Assembly (NCBI GenBank): GCA_007117525.1
Contig: SKGJ01000144.1
Span: forward strand, 1-12,834
Source of the DNA: Alkalimonas sp.
GTDB lineage: Bacteria > Pseudomonadota > Gammaproteobacteria > Enterobacterales > Alteromonadaceae
DNA length: 12,834 bases
Direction: 5' to 3'
Both the position numbers and the translations under genes were made by a program. The notes below the pieces were generated by a model, which was not told where the DNA came from, made no database searches, and saw only the letters and a list, made by a program, of their open reading frames with translations. Below are positions 5,578 through 12,834 of this stretch, piece after piece. Numbering within the stretch: the stretch's first letter is position 1; every line of letters starts with the position of its first letter.

Positions 5578-5592
5578 AAAAGTACTACTTTT
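5578..5592 (+). promoter_or_regulatory. Perfect palindrome AAAAGTA-C-TACTTTT at the Abi gene start region
   Basis: A 15-bp palindrome with a single central base lies directly upstream of the Abi ribosome binding site and includes the TTG at 5591. It could be an operator for autoregulation or a short hairpin close to the initiation region. No matching copy was noticed elsewhere in the window. Confidence 0.35.
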
Positions 5593-5596
5593 GAGC

Positions 5597-5606
5597 AAGG
5601 AGGGGG
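5597..5606 (+). promoter_or_regulatory. Strong Shine-Dalgarno AAGGAGGGGG deciding the Abi start
   Basis: AAGGAGGGGG is an excellent ribosome binding site, but it lies downstream of the most upstream possible start (TTG 5591). It is 11 nt before an in-frame GTG at 5618. This argues that translation starts at GTG 5618, giving a protein nine residues shorter than the TTG form. Confidence 0.6.
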
Positions 5607-5617
5607 TAAATAAACCT

Positions 5618-6577
5618 GTGCCAGACTTAAAACCATGGCGGTCAATGACCGACCAATTAGCTATTCTAAAATCCCGTGGTTTGCTGGTTGATAATGAACC
5701 AGCAGCGCTTAATTACCTTGCACGTATTGGTTATTACCGGCTAAGCGGCTATTGGTACCCCCTTCGCGTTATCGACACTGAAACATCACTACAAGAACAC
5801 CGACCCGTGCGCTTTGATCACTTTATGCCAGAAAGCCATTTTGAAGATGTGGTTAAGTTGTATGTGTTTGATAAAAAGCTACGTCTACTGGCGCTGGATG
5901 CATTGGAACGAATTGAAATGGCACTTCGGGTGGACATTGCCCATCGGTTAGGGGAGAAAGATCCCTGTGCACACCTGAACCCGGATTGCTTGCATGGTAA
6001 TTTTGCCAAAAAAGCGATAATAAAAGGGCCAAACAAAGGCAAGACTGAGCATCAGGTATGGCTGGAAAAATACGATACTATGTTGAAACGAGCGCGACGG
6101 GAGCCTTTTATTGCTCATCACCGCGAGAAGTATGACGGCTGTTTACCAATATGGGTAGCGATTGAAGTATGGGACTTCGGACTACTGTCCCGGTTATTTG
6201 AAGGCATGCAGTTTACAGATAAAAATCAGGTGGCCCAAAAGTATGGGCTTGCGGACGGCGCTCAGCTGGCAAAATGGCTTAAGAGTTTGAACTTTGTGCG
6301 TAACGTGTCAGCGCACCATAGCCGACTATGGAATATCAACGTATTAGAGCTATCAGTCTGCCCAACTAACTGGCCAAAGATGAACCATAGCCGCCCTTTT
6401 ATGTACTTTGCCATCATGGCGAAACTACTCGCTGTTATTTGCCCTAACTCAAGCTGGACACAACGACTGATTGCACTGATAAACGACTTCCCAAGCTCTA
6501 GAAATGGCATGTTAACAGTGCAAGACCTTGGTGTCGTTGAGGGGGCTGTTGAATGGCTGAGTCAATTTCAGAAATGA
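5618..6577 (+). CDS. Abi_2 (AbiD/AbiF-like) family protein with HEPN-type R-x4-H motif
   Basis: A 319-residue protein (328 if translation began at TTG 5591) of the Abi family. Related lactococcal AbiD/AbiF proteins abort phage infection; the family belongs to the HEPN superfamily, many members of which are RNases. The N-terminal signature is clear: a lysine/arginine-rich start, ILKSRGLLVDNEP, then ARIGYYRLSGYWYPLR. LLALDALERIEMALR follows. Near the C-terminal third, FVRNVSAHHSRLWN carries the R-x4-H pattern (R228 and H233 from GTG 5618) proposed as the HEPN catalytic pair. No partner antitoxin ORF is evident. Its composition is more AT-rich than its neighbours (25 G+C of 60 at 5641-5700, against 42 of 60 at 11701-11760), suggesting acquisition by transfer. 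It converges on the condensin-like operon, so the two are not co-transcribed. The family is firm; function here is inferred. Confidence 0.88.
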   Translation: MPDLKPWRSMTDQLAILKSRGLLVDNEPAALNYLARIGYYRLSGYWYPLRVIDTETSLQEHRPVRFDHFMPESHFEDVVKLYVFDKKLRLLALDALERIEMALRVDIAHRLGEKDPCAHLNPDCLHGNFAKKAIIKGPNKGKTEHQVWLEKYDTMLKRARREPFIAHHREKYDGCLPIWVAIEVWDFGLLSRLFEGMQFTDKNQVAQKYGLADGAQLAKWLKSLNFVRNVSAHHSRLWNINVLELSVCPTNWPKMNHSRPFMYFAIMAKLLAVICPNSSWTQRLIALINDFPSSRNGMLTVQDLGVVEGAVEWLSQFQK

Positions 6578-6765: not shown

Positions 6766-7626
6766 TTAGGTCAGGCTGATTGGTTTTAGTTGCTGCTGTT
6801 GCATATTTTGCTGGCGCAGGCCTTTTAGTTGCTGACAAAGTAACGCTTGGTAAGGCTGAAAATCCTGGCTGCAGGCAGTGCTTTTGATCGCTGGCAGGTA
6901 TTTCAGCTGAGTATCCGGCAGCATGCTGCTGCTGGCTTGTTGTTGCAAAGTGGCAAGATCTGGTAACAGCATGGCCTGATAGCCTTCGTGCAAAGCGATG
7001 CTAACGCCCTTGCCATCAAAATCACCAAAGTAGATGGCGGGTTTCTGCAGCTGAAGCCAGGCGGTTTTGAGTGCTTTGCAGCCCCGGCTGTAGAGGCGAT
7101 CGCCGCGATAAACCACCAACGGCTGCTGGAAGGGTAGCTCCAGAGTGAACAGCTCCAGTTGGTAAAAACAATCAAGGTTTTCCACTACCAGCAAGGTGTC
7201 GAATTGGTCCAGTGGTAGTTGCTGCCAGTCGGTGTCGATAAACTCTGTATGAAGACCTGCTTGCTGCGTTGGTTGATTTAAACGCAGCAGCACCCGCTGT
7301 TGGCGCGGTTTTAAGCCAGCGCTTTTTAATTCCTGCTGGCTATGTTTGGCGGCCTCTAACCTACCCATCTGTTGCGGATTATCGCGAAAACAGGCCTGGC
7401 CGAGCTGGCGCTGGGCTGTGGCAATGGCCCCCAGCAGCGCCAGATCAAAGCGGACTTTGGGCAAGCTGGCGCTGTGGGCTGGCAATAGTTGTTGCTCAAT
7501 GCACCAGTCAATCACCTGAGCTGCCGCTTTTTTGCCGGGGCTTACGGCTTTGCTGCTGCTGGCTTTCAGCCGTAGCTCCAGCTGGCGCAGCCAGTTCAGT
7601 GCCTGCAGCCCCAGCGCCTGTTGCAT
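6766..7626 (-). CDS. jetD: JetD/MksG-like Toprim nuclease subunit of a Wadjet-type system
   Basis: A 286-residue protein with a C-terminal Toprim fold. The Toprim acidic residues are visible: E149 in TLLVVENLDCF and the D-x-D pair D202/D204 in YFGDFDGKGVSIA, separated by a GDRLYSRGCKAL segment. This matches the DUF2220-type Toprim of JetD, where the motif is usually GDIDxEG. In Wadjet systems JetD is the metal-dependent nuclease that cuts DNA after the condensin complex has stalled on a small circle. Residues 1-110 are helical and basic and may be a DNA-binding arm. It appears roughly 100 residues shorter than the JetD proteins I know. It is the last gene of the operon; ATG 7626 overlaps the kleisin stop as TGATG, with only a weak AAGG ahead of it, so translation probably depends on coupling. 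Confidence 0.72.
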   Translation of the reverse strand: MQQALGLQALNWLRQLELRLKASSSKAVSPGKKAAAQVIDWCIEQQLLPAHSASLPKVRFDLALLGAIATAQRQLGQACFRDNPQQMGRLEAAKHSQQELKSAGLKPRQQRVLLRLNQPTQQAGLHTEFIDTDWQQLPLDQFDTLLVVENLDCFYQLELFTLELPFQQPLVVYRGDRLYSRGCKALKTAWLQLQKPAIYFGDFDGKGVSIALHEGYQAMLLPDLATLQQQASSSMLPDTQLKYLPAIKSTACSQDFQPYQALLCQQLKGLRQQNMQQQQLKPISLT

Positions 7627-8867
7627 CAGGCGGCCTTCAGGGCGATCTGAATATCGCGGATCAGCAGCAACTGGTTGACGTTACTGGCCGGAGCTTCGTC
7701 GCGCAAAATACCGAACATGCGCTTTTCTTCCAGCGGTAGTGCCTGGTATTCGGCCAGGATCTGATACAGCCAGATCTCGCTGTCCCAGTCGAGCTTCTGC
7801 TGTGCAAGGTACTCCAGTGCGCTGAGTTTGCCGCCCTGATCAATCACCCGCAGGTAGAAGTTTTCCACATCGGTTTTCAGCGCCTGCTGGCGGGCGGCGA
7901 TTTCTTCATCGACCATCAACTCAGCAAAGCTGGCGCTGTGTTGCTCCGGCAGTTCGATACTGCTGGGCCTTGGCAGGGCGCGTACCAGTTCGGCCAGCAC
8001 GGCCCGTTCGCTGGCTTTATCCAGCGCGATGGCGGCCTGTGGCCGGATCGCTGCTGCCTGGTTGAACAAGGTTGGCAGTTCGGAGCGATTGGGGTAATCG
8101 GCTGGCTGGTATTTGGGGTGCTGGCGTAAAAAAGCCGCCATATTGGCGATCAGCATGGAGCGGGCCTGTTGCTGACGGAATTTCGCCAGCAGTTGCACCA
8201 GCCGCTTTTGTACTTCCAGCAAGCTGCTGTGATGGGAGCTGAGCTGATTTTGCAACTGGCTGACCAGCAGTTTACGCAGGTGGTTGTTGCCTTCCGACAG
8301 CTCGATCAGCTCATTGAAATCGAGCAAATCCAGGCCATCCAGCAAACGGCGCAGCTGCTTTTGCGCCCGTTCGTTTTCGCGGATCTTATCATCCAGGCTG
8401 CTGACAAAACCAAAGTCGCTGTTTAAGCGGTGCCAAAGGCTGTCGATGGCTTCTTCAAACTGGCCGCTTAAATCGTGCACATGCTCGGTCAGGCGCTGCA
8501 GTTGCAGCTCGGCCACGCTGTAATCGCCTTTGAACTGGGCATCGCGGTAGGCCTGTACCCGGTTGCGGATTTGTTCTAACTTCTCGGCCACGTCGGCATT
8601 GATCTGGCGGCGGTTTTCATCGGCCACCATACTGGCTATCAGCTCACTGACCAAAGGCCGCAGCGCCAGTGGCTGTTGTTCATCCGGTCGCCACAGTATA
8701 CGGGCCGCGATCAGCTTTTTCAGTGCGGCTTCGCTAAAGGCGGTTTCATCAATATGGCCATCCAGATAACCCTGCATCAGCGCTTTGTGGTGCTTGCCAA
8801 GCAAGGCCAGGCGCTCGGCACCGATGCTGAATAAATTGGACGCCAGGCTGGGTTCCAACGGGGCCAT
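7626..8867 (-). CDS. jetA: JetA/MksF-like kleisin subunit of a Wadjet-type condensin
   Basis: A 413-residue, mostly helical protein without enzyme motifs. Residues about 10-85 look like a winged-helix domain. Residues about 90-260 are long amphipathic helices (VAEKLEQIRNRVQAYR, KQLRRLLDGLDLLDF, SLLEVQKRLVQLLAKF) able to pack against an SMC coiled coil. Residues about 330-413 form another small helical, winged-helix-like domain ending in LLLIRDIQIALKA. This architecture, the length and the position beside SMC and KITE genes identify it as the kleisin-like bridge (MukF/MksF/JetA class) linking the two ATPase heads. The assignment comes from context and architecture more than from conserved motifs. 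ATG 8867 shares TGATG with the preceding stop and has AGGAGG 10 nt upstream (plus-strand 8878-8883). Confidence 0.68.
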   Translation of the reverse strand: MAPLEPSLASNLFSIGAERLALLGKHHKALMQGYLDGHIDETAFSEAALKKLIAARILWRPDEQQPLALRPLVSELIASMVADENRRQINADVAEKLEQIRNRVQAYRDAQFKGDYSVAELQLQRLTEHVHDLSGQFEEAIDSLWHRLNSDFGFVSSLDDKIRENERAQKQLRRLLDGLDLLDFNELIELSEGNNHLRKLLVSQLQNQLSSHHSSLLEVQKRLVQLLAKFRQQQARSMLIANMAAFLRQHPKYQPADYPNRSELPTLFNQAAAIRPQAAIALDKASERAVLAELVRALPRPSSIELPEQHSASFAELMVDEEIAARQQALKTDVENFYLRVIDQGGKLSALEYLAQQKLDWDSEIWLYQILAEYQALPLEEKRMFGILRDEAPASNVNQLLLIRDIQIALKAA

Positions 8868-9487
8868 CAGAGCAGTGCCTCCTGACTGGGGGTATCGTCT
8901 ACCGGCAGTTGCTCTTCATCGCGGATAAAGCGGATCACATCCAGCAGATGATCAATTTTACCGGTGACGATGTAGTACTGGCGTTCACTGTGCGGTTGCA
9001 GCAGATAGCCGTGCTCTTTTAAGCGGCGGAAAATCAGTTTGACCTGGCTGTCCAGTTGCTCGCTCTGGCTGTTAAAAAAGCGGTCGCTGGCCAGGGCGTT
9101 CAGGCGCTGGCGCAGGCTCTGGTTGTCTTCGGTGCGCAGCACAAACTCCTGCAGCTTGATGGTATCGCCGGCGGTCAGGGCGCTGTCGCGGCCCAGGGTT
9201 TCCTGCACCAGTTGCAGCCATTCCAGCAAAGGCAGCAAGGATTGCACCGTCAGGGCAAACTGGCTGCTTAGATGCTCGCGGGCTTCTTTGCTCAGCTCGT
9301 GGTAACCGAGATAAAACACCGAGCCATCGTCATTGCTAACCAGCCGGCGGTTTAACGGCCGCAGGTAGTGGTTGATCTCCTGCTGGGTTTGTTCATCGCT
9401 CAGGTGGCGATAGCCATCTTCGTCGCTGATTTGACAGATAAAGTCACCGGCCAGCAGCCGTTCCAGTAAAGGGCCGTGTTGCAGCAT
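8867..9487 (-). CDS. jetB: JetB/MksE-like KITE subunit of a Wadjet-type condensin
   Basis: A 206-residue acidic to neutral protein resembling MukE/MksE/JetB, small tandem winged-helix (KITE) proteins that bind the kleisin and DNA in bacterial condensins. The first domain (1-75) has the pattern GDFICQISDEDGYRHL, then RLVSNDDGSVFYLGY, like a winged helix with a beta wing. The second (about 130-195) has LIFRRLKEHGYLLQPHS, then YYIVTGKIDHLLDVIRFI, again helix plus wing. No catalytic residues are seen. ATG 9487 shares TGATG with the SMC stop and has AGGAGG 7 nt upstream (plus-strand 9495-9500), lying inside the last SMC codons. It should therefore be made efficiently and coupled to SMC translation. 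Confidence 0.7.
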   Translation of the reverse strand: MLQHGPLLERLLAGDFICQISDEDGYRHLSDEQTQQEINHYLRPLNRRLVSNDDGSVFYLGYHELSKEAREHLSSQFALTVQSLLPLLEWLQLVQETLGRDSALTAGDTIKLQEFVLRTEDNQSLRQRLNALASDRFFNSQSEQLDSQVKLIFRRLKEHGYLLQPHSERQYYIVTGKIDHLLDVIRFIRDEEQLPVDDTPSQEALL

Positions 9488-12400
9488 CAGCTGGCCTCCT
9501 GCTGTTTCTGTGCCAGCCGCTCAGCAAGGCGGCTGACTTTGGGTTGAATGCGTTTCAGCTGGCGCTGGTTCGGGTTCTGCTGGCTGGGCTCAATCAGATA
9601 GCGGTGCTGGAACAGCATCAGCACATCGGACTCCGGGTTCGGGAAGGCACCGACAATGACAATGTTGTTGCTGCTGCAAGCCTGGAACAGTTTTTCCACG
9701 TTATGGTAGGCCAGGGTACCGATTTCATCAATCGGCCAGTGAATGCTGACCTTGGCCTCGCCGCGCAGCAAGCGGGTAAAGGCCAGCAGGTATTTGCACA
9801 GAATAAGGTAGGCCATGCCATGGCTGGAGGACTCCAGCAACTGGCGATCGTTCTTAATCACCAGCTCGGAGCCGCCTTCGCTTAAATGCAATTCCAGCCG
9901 CAGCAGGGACTCAATGCTGTACTGCTCGTCGGCGCGCAGCAGCTCGACCACATCGGCCAGGGCGTTTAAGTACTGCTCCGAGGGCAGGGCTTTGCCAGAG
10001 GCACCCCAGTCGTCGTACAGCTTGGCGAAGTGCTTCAGTGGTTGCCAGAAACCCAGCTCGTCGATGGTGGATAGAATGCGAACTTCTGAGCGGCTGATGC
10101 CTTCCAGCACCAGATCGTCGGCCACGGCTTCACTTAAACGGCGGCTTTGCAGCGCAATACGGCGGTTGATGTCGCTAAAGACGGTGAAGAACTTTTTCAG
10201 ATCGCCGCCGATGTTTTCGCCCATTTCCAGCAGCTGTTGCTGGGCGTCTTTTAAAATACGCAGCAAATCGGACAGGATTGGCAACTGCTCGCGCTTGCCG
10301 GCGTAGTCGGGCAATTTGCGTTTTTCATGTTCCAGCCGGTCCAGGAACTCAGGGCCGGCATCTTTACTCAGCATGCTTTCAAACTGCTCCATCGCCTGCT
10401 TTAGTGTGCTGTCGAGCTTGCTGCGCTGTTCCAGTGCTTCGTTGGTACGTGACAACCGTTCAATCACATCGGCGCAGGCTGCCAGGCTGGCTGGCTTCAC
10501 GCTGCTCAGGTGCAGCTCGGCCAGCTTGCTCAGGCAAGGTTTTAATTGCACCAGCCGCTGCTCGGCGTGTTGCATCTGTTCCTGATGCTGTTGCTTGCGC
10601 ACATCCAGCTGTTTTTGCTGCTGGCTGTAATCGGCTTTTAGTTGTTCCAGCGCCTGACGGCCCGTGCGCTGTTGTTGTTTCAGTGTGGTTTCCTGCTCCA
10701 GCAGCTTGGGCCGCAGCTGCTGCCAGTCCAGCTGCATAAAGCTTTGCCAGGCGCTCAGTTCATTCTGACGCTCGGTCACGCTTTGGATCTCGGTTTTCAG
10801 CTGGTCCTGCTTTTGCTTTAACTCGGTCAGACGGCGCGGATCGATGCCTTTGGCGGAGAGCTCTTCGGCAAAGGCTTGCTGCAGTTCGCGCAGCTGGTTT
10901 TTGTTGTCTTCGCGCTTGCGTTCCAGTTGGCGCTCCAGCTCGTCCATTTGTTCATCGAATACTTGCAGTTCGGCCTGCCAGTCGGCTTTTAGCTCCATTT
11001 TCTGGCTGTTGTGGTCGTCTTTGAGGCCGTGCAGATCCTGTTGTTGCTGGTGCTGCAGTTTTTCCAGTTGCTGCTGACGGCTGCTCAGTTCCGAGCGTAC
11101 GCTGGCCTGGCGCTGTTTCACCAGCTCGCGCTGCTGGGCTTCTAAGCGGTTGCGGGCATCGCGGGCGTAGTCGATGTTTTGCTCGTACTGGGTCAGTTGC
11201 CATTCGGCCTGCTCCAGTTGTGCCCGGGCCAGTTCGGCCTGCTCGTACTTGTCTTTTAATGCTTTCTCGGCCGCCGCTTTGTTGCTGTTGGCCTGCTCCA
11301 GCTGCTGTTCGGCACTGTGAATGCGGTGACGAATGGCGGCTTCATCCTGGGCGTAGTCCGGGGTGTCGATGGCGGCTATATCCAGCTGCAGGCCATAGAG
11401 GCTGTCGGTCAGATCCAGCAGGTGTGGCTGCAAGTCGTGCCGCTCCAGCAGGCGTTCGTCCAGCACCTTGCCAAGCTTTTGCTCCCAGCCGTTGTAATGC
11501 AGCCGCAGGAAATGGCGCAAACTGCCTTGTTCGGGGCTTAGTTGGCGATGCAGGTTTTGCAGCTGCTGCTCGGCGCTGTGCAGGGCTTTGCGGCTGGCTT
11601 CCAACTGCTGGTCGGCCTGCTCACGCTGTTGCTGTGCTTGCTGGTGCTGCTTTTGCAGTTGCTGCAACTGCCGCGCCTGCTGCTGTGCTTGCTGCTGGGC
11701 TTGCTCCAGCCGCAGTTCGGCGGAGCGCAGCTCGTCGTGCTCGGCTTCGGTCAGCGGCGAGGCGCTTAGCTGGCTGTGCAACACGGCGATAGCACTGTGG
11801 CATTCACTGAGCTGATTGGCGAAGGCTTGCTGTTGCTCTTGTAGCCGGCTTTGAAAGGCCTGTTCCAGCGCAGCCAGTTTGTTGTCTTGTTGCTCGCGGG
11901 TCTGGTCCTTTTGCAGCTGCAGCTGCTTGGCCTTGGCTCTGTACTGCTCGCTTAAGCGATTAAAGGACTCCGCCAGCTTGGCTTTGCGCTGCTCCAGCTG
12001 ACGCTCCATATCGCCGTGCTGCTCCACCATCAATTGGTACTGTTCAGCCAGTTCTTGCAGGGTTTCGCGCCACAGCGGCAGCGCATCGGTATCGCGCTGC
12101 AGTTTCGGCATGTCTTTGCTGTCAAAGTCATCGTACTGTTGCTGTAAGCGATCCAACCGGGCCGAGGTTTCATGCAGATCGGCTTCCACTTTGGCCAGTT
12201 GGCTGTTGTGCTCCAGTTGCTGTTGCTGATACTGATCTTTGGCGCTTTGCAATTGCTGACGCAGGCTTTGCACCTGCTGCTCGGCATCGGCGCGTTGTTG
12301 CTTTAACTGCTGCTCATCCTGCTCCAGCAGGGGCAGCAAAGCCGCCAACTGGGCTTCGGCACCATCCAGTTGCAATGCCAGTTGTTGCAGCCGCTCGAAA

Positions 12401-12834
12401 TCCTGTTGCAACCGGTCCAGCCGCATCGATTGGCGCATCTGCTGGATCCAGTCCCGTGCCTTGGTGTTTTTTACCTTGGTGGTCGGTAGCGTCACGCCAT
12501 CTTCTTCAAAAATAGCCGCCAGCATCGCTTTTAGCGTATCCATCTTGCCTTCTTTGGCATGGACGGCGCTGACCAGCTTTTCGATATGACGCAGCTTGTG
12601 GCCACTGGCGACCAGACTAAAGCTGGCGGCCAGCCGGCGCAGCTTGATGCTGTCGGCATTGTTGCCACGCAGCGCGGCGGCGTCGTTTTGAATAATGCTG
12701 CGGTACTCGCTGGTGGCACTTATTTTGGCAGAGACTTGCACATCAGGCCGGGCGCGCATGGCGCTGGCCCAATCGCTGTAGCTCAGCGCCTTCACGCCTT
12801 CTTCGCTTTGCTGCAGGTAGAAATCGCTCTGGTA
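9487..12834 (-). CDS. jetC: SMC/MukB-like ATPase (JetC/MksB class), N-terminal head cut off by window edge
   Basis: At least 1115 residues of an SMC-type motor; the frame is open to the right edge, so GTG 12795 is internal and Walker A is not visible. Residues are counted from GTG 12795. About 130-420 and 480-800 are two long Gln/Glu/Leu-rich coiled-coil arms. Between them, about 424-475, lies a compact hinge-like segment (SLRHFLRLHYNGWEQKLGKV, then LYGLQLDIAAI). The C-terminal head holds a signature-like SSSHGMAYLILCKY at 989-1002 and Walker B with catalytic glutamate in IHWPIDEIGTL (D1023, E1024), followed by IVIVGAFPN. This matches MukB/MksB/JetC-type proteins, possibly the DUF3584 branch. 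In such complexes ATP hydrolysis drives DNA loop extrusion. It is the first visible gene of the operon; the promoter is outside the window. Confidence 0.82.
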   Translation of the reverse strand, partial: YQSDFYLQQSEEGVKALSYSDWASAMRARPDVQVSAKISATSEYRSIIQNDAAALRGNNADSIKLRRLAASFSLVASGHKLRHIEKLVSAVHAKEGKMDTLKAMLAAIFEEDGVTLPTTKVKNTKARDWIQQMRQSMRLDRLQQDFERLQQLALQLDGAEAQLAALLPLLEQDEQQLKQQRADAEQQVQSLRQQLQSAKDQYQQQQLEHNSQLAKVEADLHETSARLDRLQQQYDDFDSKDMPKLQRDTDALPLWRETLQELAEQYQLMVEQHGDMERQLEQRKAKLAESFNRLSEQYRAKAKQLQLQKDQTREQQDNKLAALEQAFQSRLQEQQQAFANQLSECHSAIAVLHSQLSASPLTEAEHDELRSAELRLEQAQQQAQQQARQLQQLQKQHQQAQQQREQADQQLEASRKALHSAEQQLQNLHRQLSPEQGSLRHFLRLHYNGWEQKLGKVLDERLLERHDLQPHLLDLTDSLYGLQLDIAAIDTPDYAQDEAAIRHRIHSAEQQLEQANSNKAAAEKALKDKYEQAELARAQLEQAEWQLTQYEQNIDYARDARNRLEAQQRELVKQRQASVRSELSSRQQQLEKLQHQQQQDLHGLKDDHNSQKMELKADWQAELQVFDEQMDELERQLERKREDNKNQLRELQQAFAEELSAKGIDPRRLTELKQKQDQLKTEIQSVTERQNELSAWQSFMQLDWQQLRPKLLEQETTLKQQQRTGRQALEQLKADYSQQQKQLDVRKQQHQEQMQHAEQRLVQLKPCLSKLAELHLSSVKPASLAACADVIERLSRTNEALEQRSKLDSTLKQAMEQFESMLSKDAGPEFLDRLEHEKRKLPDYAGKREQLPILSDLLRILKDAQQQLLEMGENIGGDLKKFFTVFSDINRRIALQSRRLSEAVADDLVLEGISRSEVRILSTIDELGFWQPLKHFAKLYDDWGASGKALPSEQYLNALADVVELLRADEQYSIESLLRLELHLSEGGSELVIKNDRQLLESSSHGMAYLILCKYLLAFTRLLRGEAKVSIHWPIDEIGTLAYHNVEKLFQACSSNNIVIVGAFPNPESDVLMLFQHRYLIEPSQQNPNQRQLKRIQPKVSRLAERLAQKQQEAS

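Follow-up and report, generated by a model that had tools for sequence, protein, structure and literature searches.

A four-gene operon on the minus strand of an Alkalimonas sp. contig probably encodes a Wadjet-like plasmid-restriction complex, built on a condensin that would have an additional role independent of its nuclease; this reading is drawn from sequence comparison. The operon lies at 6766..12834 of the window, by which we mean the whole contig (C259, 12,834 nucleotides), from an assembly of 435 contigs that is 72% complete. Its genes are transcribed in the order SMC-KITE-kleisin-Toprim, each stop codon overlapping the next start through TGATG. Across relatives, the core (SMC, KITE and kleisin) is constrained with or without the Toprim nuclease, and the nuclease evolves fast, is often missing and, among close relatives, has a history discordant with that of the core; it is this combination that argues for a nuclease-independent role of the core. 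Nuclease-free members of the Wadjet group, MukBEF included, are already known in general, according to the available part of PMC7617805. The present comparison adds a subfamily, marked by its recurrent gene order, whose members have lost the nuclease repeatedly, in part recently and in a traceable way, and have apparently swapped it as well.

Four subunits of a divergent complex

All four open reading frames (ORFs) of the adjacent minus-strand genes described in the initial annotation are present, and its proposal of a complete Wadjet part list holds for SMC, KITE and Toprim and, with the least certainty, for the kleisin. The SMC ATPase, equivalent to JetC/MksB, is encoded at 9487..12834 and matches DUF3584 (Pfam PF12128, E = 1.2e-189). 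Its 5' end is open, leaving 1115 residues in the window; the N-terminal ~106 residues are lost at the contig end, and Walker A thus lies outside the window. Walker B (WPIDEIG), already noted in the initial annotation, and the signature motif (SSSHG) are present. Walker A (GTNASGKT) was taken from the full-length SMC (1221 aa, 99% identical) of the Alkalimonas amylolytica locus L015, which shares 97.6% DNA identity with the window operon. The KITE gene (8867..9487, 206 aa; JetB/MksE equivalent) encodes a protein that matches PADLOC JetB1 (7.8e-5) and, below the cut-off, DUF4194 (9.2e-5; 22.7 bits against 32.7). The KITEs of some relatives match Pfam MksE: those of L062 (34.0 bits) and L086 (44.3) pass the cut-off of 27, those of L058 (24.1) and L160 (20.7) fall below it, and that of L145 gave no match.

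The 413-residue product of the third gene (7626..8867) is the probable kleisin, equivalent to JetA/MksF, as indicated by operon position, public names and a weak structural model; it is the least certain of the four parts. Its position in the operon is constant across relatives, and at least 6 of 120 listed UniRef homologues are named 'DUF3375 domain-containing', DUF3375 being the JetA domain. Pfam yielded no relevant hidden Markov model (HMM) family, and neither Pfam DUF3375 nor PADLOC JetA gave a match. The AlphaFold2 model, with a mean predicted local distance difference test score of 66.3, has a helical N-terminal part with short strands, a long helical middle and a C-terminal helix-strand domain. 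A Foldseek comparison, suggested in the initial annotation and run on this subunit, placed MukBEF chain 9gm7_C (440 aa) first with E = 0.093, a suggestive, not a significant, match; MukBEF or MukF chains occupied ranks 1, 9, 12 and 49, none of them significant. VIA-align gave generic helical matches, with no kleisin in its 50 rows.

The last gene (6766..7626, 286 aa; JetD/MksG equivalent) matches DUF7281 (5.6e-20) and JetD_C (1.8e-5; 24.6 bits against a cut-off of 22). The metal-site residues E149 and D202-x-D204 are intact, as the initial annotation had read them; R174-G175 and, near the C-terminus, Q272-Q273 were also located. The structural model matches MksG (8b7f), JetD (7til) and the topoisomerase VI A subunit from residue ~109 onward, and by its modelled fold and acidic residues the protein is a nuclease of the topoisomerase VI/JetD/MksG type. 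Corynebacterium glutamicum MksG was matched from its residue 217, so that the window protein is shorter by ~100 N-terminal residues, bearing out the earlier remark that this subunit is short. Searches of the PDB by sequence and profile found no relevant relative for KITE, kleisin, Toprim or SMC (the last as a single sequence only).

Residues 272-273 of the Toprim protein are Q-E in deep clades and Q-Q in the window's clade; the sister clade is mostly Q-Q, with Q-E in L142, L196 and L197. In Top6A, whose acidic residues are E202/D254/D256, the substitution E342Q raises cleavage (PMC13040014, in the part available). The 272-273 position could be the clasp site studied as Top6A E342Q; inactivation of the nuclease by the QE-to-QQ change was considered, and we make no claim for it, the equivalence to E342 not being established. 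At another locus (L148, 217-7481) a gene downstream of a DUF7281-type Toprim gene encodes a large protein of 1476 aa that PADLOC scores as TmtA-like; such nucleases may thus serve other systems too.

As the initial annotation had suspected, the subunits are divergent: PADLOC scored a canonical operon, L177, with E = 0 for JetC1 and 1.5e-214 for JetA1, and the window operon proteins at 1.9e-5 or worse. JetC3 matched the window SMC at 0.038 and that of L058 at 1.2e-7, in both cases over a central region likely to be coiled coil; the full-length SMCs of L058 and L062 gave no match to Pfam MukB at E 0.01. The SMC-head tree that had been proposed as a check was run with SMCs from JetD_C loci and MukB, JetC2, JetC3 and PAO1 MksB not being among the sequences; L015 stood in for the cut SMC of the window, and several branches are long. 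All 22 chosen family SMCs fall on one side of a branch (99/99), the 10 SMCs from JetD_C loci group apart (100/99), and MukB lies outside the family. Three of those ten (L169, L172 and L177) were submitted to PADLOC, and all were called JetC1.

The gene order is a recurrent family trait

Relatives down to ~20-30% identity have the identical four-gene order, which excludes a chance arrangement. Searches with the SMC found 36 named loci, 34 of which were usable (L048 and L049 lacked a kleisin or enough sequence behind it). The core order SMC-KITE-kleisin is found in all 34. Behind it, 27 loci have an intact Toprim gene, three keep a remnant of one (L022, L029 and L043) and four have none (L021, L027, L028 and L047). 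The order is also kept in L058-L063, which represent one further genome of the host family and five from other families within the host's order, and on the six plasmids that were read (L081, L082 and L084-L087) from 17 matching plasmid records; L081, L082 and L084 are conjugative. On L082, an IncC plasmid, the operon stands beside a TnsD-like Tn7-type gene and its SMC gene is broken by an insertion sequence; in L084 the SMC and the kleisin are each divided over two annotated ORFs. The Dolichospermum phage Dfl-JY45 (L080, 4684-11039) carries a complete operon in a cyanophage genome, with all four genes annotated as hypothetical; there it could possibly act as a weapon against rival circular elements. 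A KITE-based scan of viral contigs found no relative. The operon is also present in Escherichia coli RM14723 (L083), with the Toprim gene split into two ORFs (14665-15542), and 11 of 5426 E. coli genomes show a DNA match. The neighbours of the RM14723 operon are a cluster for type II secretion and further genes of defence-like character.

The order SMC-KITE-kleisin-Toprim is therefore a recurrent trait of a divergent family. The initial annotation had given the transcription order correctly, as C-B-A-D in Wadjet lettering; its description of the order as rearranged does not hold, and a one-off rearrangement was rejected because the named loci and other families have the same order. Titles and abstract openings of the literature searched do not mention this order; Data S1 of PMC7617805, which possibly lists such operons, was outside that search. 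Separately, L162, L163 and L166 are operons with a short SMC (917-936 aa); by gene size, L162 and L166 are ordered kleisin-KITE-SMC-Toprim, with a Toprim protein that matches DUF7281 weakly, and the KITE of L166 is a clear MksE (84 bits).

Repeated loss of the nuclease gene

Of the 295 genomes sampled from the host GTDB family, 145 exceed the cut-off for DUF3584 and 54 that for DUF7281. In 50 of these 54, DUF7281 adjoins the SMC gene, as judged by eye from listed coordinates; in G563, G578, G475 and G537 it lies elsewhere. Among 58 core-bearing neighbourhoods fetched from this family, largely chosen for lacking DUF7281, a six-frame HMM search found the Toprim gene absent in 42 and present in 16. 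Thus 42 of the ~95 genomes with the SMC and no adjoining DUF7281 were read, and none has a Toprim gene there. The nuclease-free loci are not a contig-end artefact: at least ~4 kb of sequence follows the kleisin gene in them, and the chromosome that holds L047 is complete.

We assembled 107 loci with a complete core, picked partly for lacking the nuclease; the Toprim gene is full in 57, partial in 4 and missing in 46, two of which duplicate other rows by core identity (L127 = L027 and L153 = L047). On the core tree of these loci, at least 19 changes of nuclease state are required, at least 15 of them forced by supported branches. With the root placed on L145/L194, the deepest branches are all nuclease-bearing, and nuclease-free sets persist over long branches, for example a set of 11 rows (support 88). 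In order to weigh regain against loss, deep Toprim and core trees were compared over 34 full loci: 21 of 31 splits are common to both (random mean 0.15), with two supported conflicts. This agreement indicates that absence of the nuclease is mostly the result of loss, regain being less likely at depth.

Some of the changes separate close relatives. Four pairs with cores 96-100% identical per subunit differ in the nuclease (L027/L045, L028/L030, L019/L021 and L020/L021). Within Rheinheimera, R. hassiensis has the nuclease, and Rheinheimera sp. D18, whose genome is complete, is nuclease-free. Between L019 and L021, homology ends just past the kleisin gene and returns ~850 bases further on in L019, like a clean deletion.

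The core is constrained with or without the nuclease

The ratio of non-synonymous to synonymous substitution (dN/dS) was estimated from 25 chosen pairs, and figures are given where dS is finite. All values for SMC, KITE and kleisin lie within 0.006-0.078, whether the nuclease is present or absent. Pairs in which neither locus has the nuclease gave 0.026-0.070 for SMC, 0.006-0.039 for KITE and 0.008-0.066 for kleisin; pairs in which both have it gave 0.021-0.049, 0.010-0.078 and 0.017-0.061, respectively, the SMC value thus being slightly higher in some nuclease-free pairs (maximum 0.070 against 0.049). The core is therefore under strong purifying selection with or without the nuclease, and the Walker A lysine and Walker B DE residues are retained in 104 of 104 core rows. 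The Toprim gene evolves several times faster than the core (0.115-0.308, from the seven of eight full-full pairs with finite dS).

The core is in general not the sole condensin of its host. All 16 named genomes contain ScpA, as do 57 of the 60 family genomes, made up of 40 of the 42 whose core is nuclease-free and 17 of the 18 that lack DUF3584. This makes the DUF3584 core a second condensin. MukB was over the cut-off in none of the 16 named genomes and in one of the 295 family genomes, there over 38 residues. Similarly, P. aeruginosa has MksBEF beside SMC, as reported in the available portion of PMC7485682. None of the three genomes tested from the genus g331 (G626, G663 and G448) yielded ScpA; two of them carry a nuclease-free DUF3584 core, and in the third DUF3584, too, gave no match.

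Probable nuclease exchange among close relatives

Exchange was assessed over 27 loci from Rheinheimera, Arsukibacterium, Alishewanella, Alkalimonas and outgroups. The core and Toprim trees share 5 of 24 splits, 5 of 11 well-supported Toprim splits clash with well-supported core splits, and each alignment rejects the other's tree in approximately unbiased tests (p = 7e-34 and 2e-80). The window and L039 have 95.8% identity over the core and 56.3% over the Toprim protein, and their continuous DNA homology stops at the kleisin-Toprim junction. The pattern fits replacement of the nuclease allele between species in Rheinheimera/Alkalimonas, with fast divergence contributing.

Genes beside the operon

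An AbiD/Abi_2-like gene (5591..6577, plus strand; Pfam Abi_2 4.9e-54, PADLOC AbiD 9.8e-58) is convergent with the operon, a neighbour outside the complex. The cluster it represents is also found downstream of the operon in L015, L017 and L039 (3 of the 27 related loci), and what lies on its 3' side differs greatly from species to species. The remaining genes in the window appear unremarkable: a sulfate permease, a sensor diguanylate cyclase, a GNAT protein and a histidine phosphatase.

Discussion

By homology to JetABCD/MksBEFG, the kleisin would join two SMC subunits, with KITE subunits at their flanks, and the assembly would use ATP to extrude loops of DNA. When the substrate is a small closed circle, the DNA would run out, and the bent DNA would be passed to a Toprim dimer, whose cut would restrict the plasmid. 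The nuclease would be an optional effector in the last gene position. The second role of the core, to which the selection data point, is most likely auxiliary chromosome folding beside Smc-ScpAB, as for Pseudomonas MksBEF.

The strongest competing explanation, which we nevertheless regard as unlikely, is that nuclease-free cores still defend, either by trapping or compacting circular DNA uncut, in the manner of Smc5/6, or by using a nuclease encoded elsewhere. Compaction of circular DNA could allow Smc5/6 to block viral genes, according to the part of PMC10586767 available, and G563 and G578 have a nuclease-free core with a DUF7281 gene on another contig. Set against this, a search of 16 genomes, picked to include the seven named ones that have no intact nuclease at the locus, found DUF7281 nowhere in those seven assemblies, DUF7281 being the one nuclease family searched. 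Equal constraint in dozens of species, with no evident common partner gene in the neighbourhood, likewise favours housekeeping.

That the operon is dedicated to plasmid defence alone, its nuclease-free copies being dying leftovers, is less probable still. The nuclease gene is present in all seven copies read from mobile elements (6 of the 17 plasmid records and the one matching phage record), remnants of it are visible in L022, L029 and L043, and AbiD adjoins the operon, all as expected of a defence system. Leftovers of this kind are at odds with nuclease-free cores that are intact, with dN/dS like that of other cores and every ATPase motif kept, and that have lasted over long branches such as that of the 11-row set. 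The part list of the initial annotation stands, with the kleisin as its least certain entry; defence alone fails to account for a core so often retained when its nuclease is gone. It is very improbable that the Toprim gene lies next to a chromosome condensin by chance and is not its effector: although most core operons in the host family have no detected copy beside them and its tree differs from the core's among close relatives, it overlaps the kleisin gene, keeps its place after that gene in deep lineages, plasmids and phage, is co-inherited with the core at depth and has the fold of known condensin nucleases.

Several points weigh against a Wadjet-like complex with a second, nuclease-independent role. 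The kleisin is a probable identification, drawn from where its gene lies, from the public names of homologues and from a model that is weak. The core tree came from a quick search, with SH-like approximate likelihood ratio supports only, several long branches and a chosen root, and the two supported deep conflicts make some regains possible. The DUF7281 profile may miss divergent nucleases, and a nuclease-free core could defend by compaction or with an unseen partner. The core is patchy (145 of 295 genomes) and so not essential across the host family, and nearly every genome checked has Smc-ScpAB as well.

The review PMC10586767, as far as its available text goes, poses as an open question how SMC complexes that are close kin can act for the chromosome and in immunity alike. 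Our tentative suggestion is that a chromosome-serving condensin might carry an optional, horizontally exchangeable nuclease, so that lineages, through loss or replacement of one gene, could toggle between maintaining the genome and resisting plasmids; immunity and housekeeping would then be alternative states of one locus rather than two systems. Because near-identical cores differ in the nuclease, the transition is testable in matched natural pairs. The recurrent gene order also provides a simple annotation signature for a family that PADLOC scores weakly.

Comparison with known systems

The Toprim protein shares its fold and acidic triad with the topoisomerase VI A subunit and Spo11, and differs in being encoded with an SMC complex and not with a GHKL subunit; no catalytic-tyrosine domain was identified in its 286 residues, though no search was aimed at one. 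In lacking a nuclease and in standing as a second condensin beside Smc-ScpAB, the nuclease-free cores are like PAO1 MksBEF, in which the order is mksF-E-B and MksB is shorter. With MukBEF the family shares an SMC, a KITE, a kleisin model with MukF-like domain order and the existence of nuclease-free variants. It is set apart from MukBEF by gene order (mukF-mukE-mukB in E. coli), by the failure of Pfam MukB to match L058 and L062, and by the position of MukB in the head tree.

There is a close likeness to Wadjet type I (JetABCD) and the MksBEFG systems of Corynebacterium and Pseudomonas PA14, in which SMC, KITE, kleisin and a Toprim protein with E and D-x-D residues also occur together; the nuclease fold (MksG 8b7f, JetD 7til) is further common ground. 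For the kleisin the signs are divided: some homologues bear the DUF3375 name in UniRef, and no HMM search linked the protein to JetA. Those systems are ordered kleisin-KITE-SMC-nuclease, as in the mksFEBG order given in the available part of PMC10123090 and in our canonical locus L177 (JetA1-kleisin, a KITE-sized gene, JetC1 and a JetD_C gene; L172 is alike by size), in contrast to SMC-KITE-kleisin-nuclease here. The window family also differs in that its SMC heads form a clade separate from JetC1, its nuclease is shorter at the N-terminus and its PADLOC scores are weak.

The family thus has the SMC, KITE and kleisin in one operon that mark the broad Wadjet/Mks group, the kleisin by position, names and weak model, and also that group's topoisomerase VI-like Toprim nuclease with E and D-x-D residues. 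The unclassified subtype that the initial annotation had raised is made plausible by the weak PADLOC scores. Some of the components are already named in public databases, as DUF3584, MksE, DUF7281, 'Wadjet anti-phage system protein JetD domain-containing' and, for some kleisin homologues in UniRef, 'DUF3375 domain-containing'. Set against Wadjet type I and MukB, the two systems to which this comparison is confined, the operon family is plausibly such a subtype.

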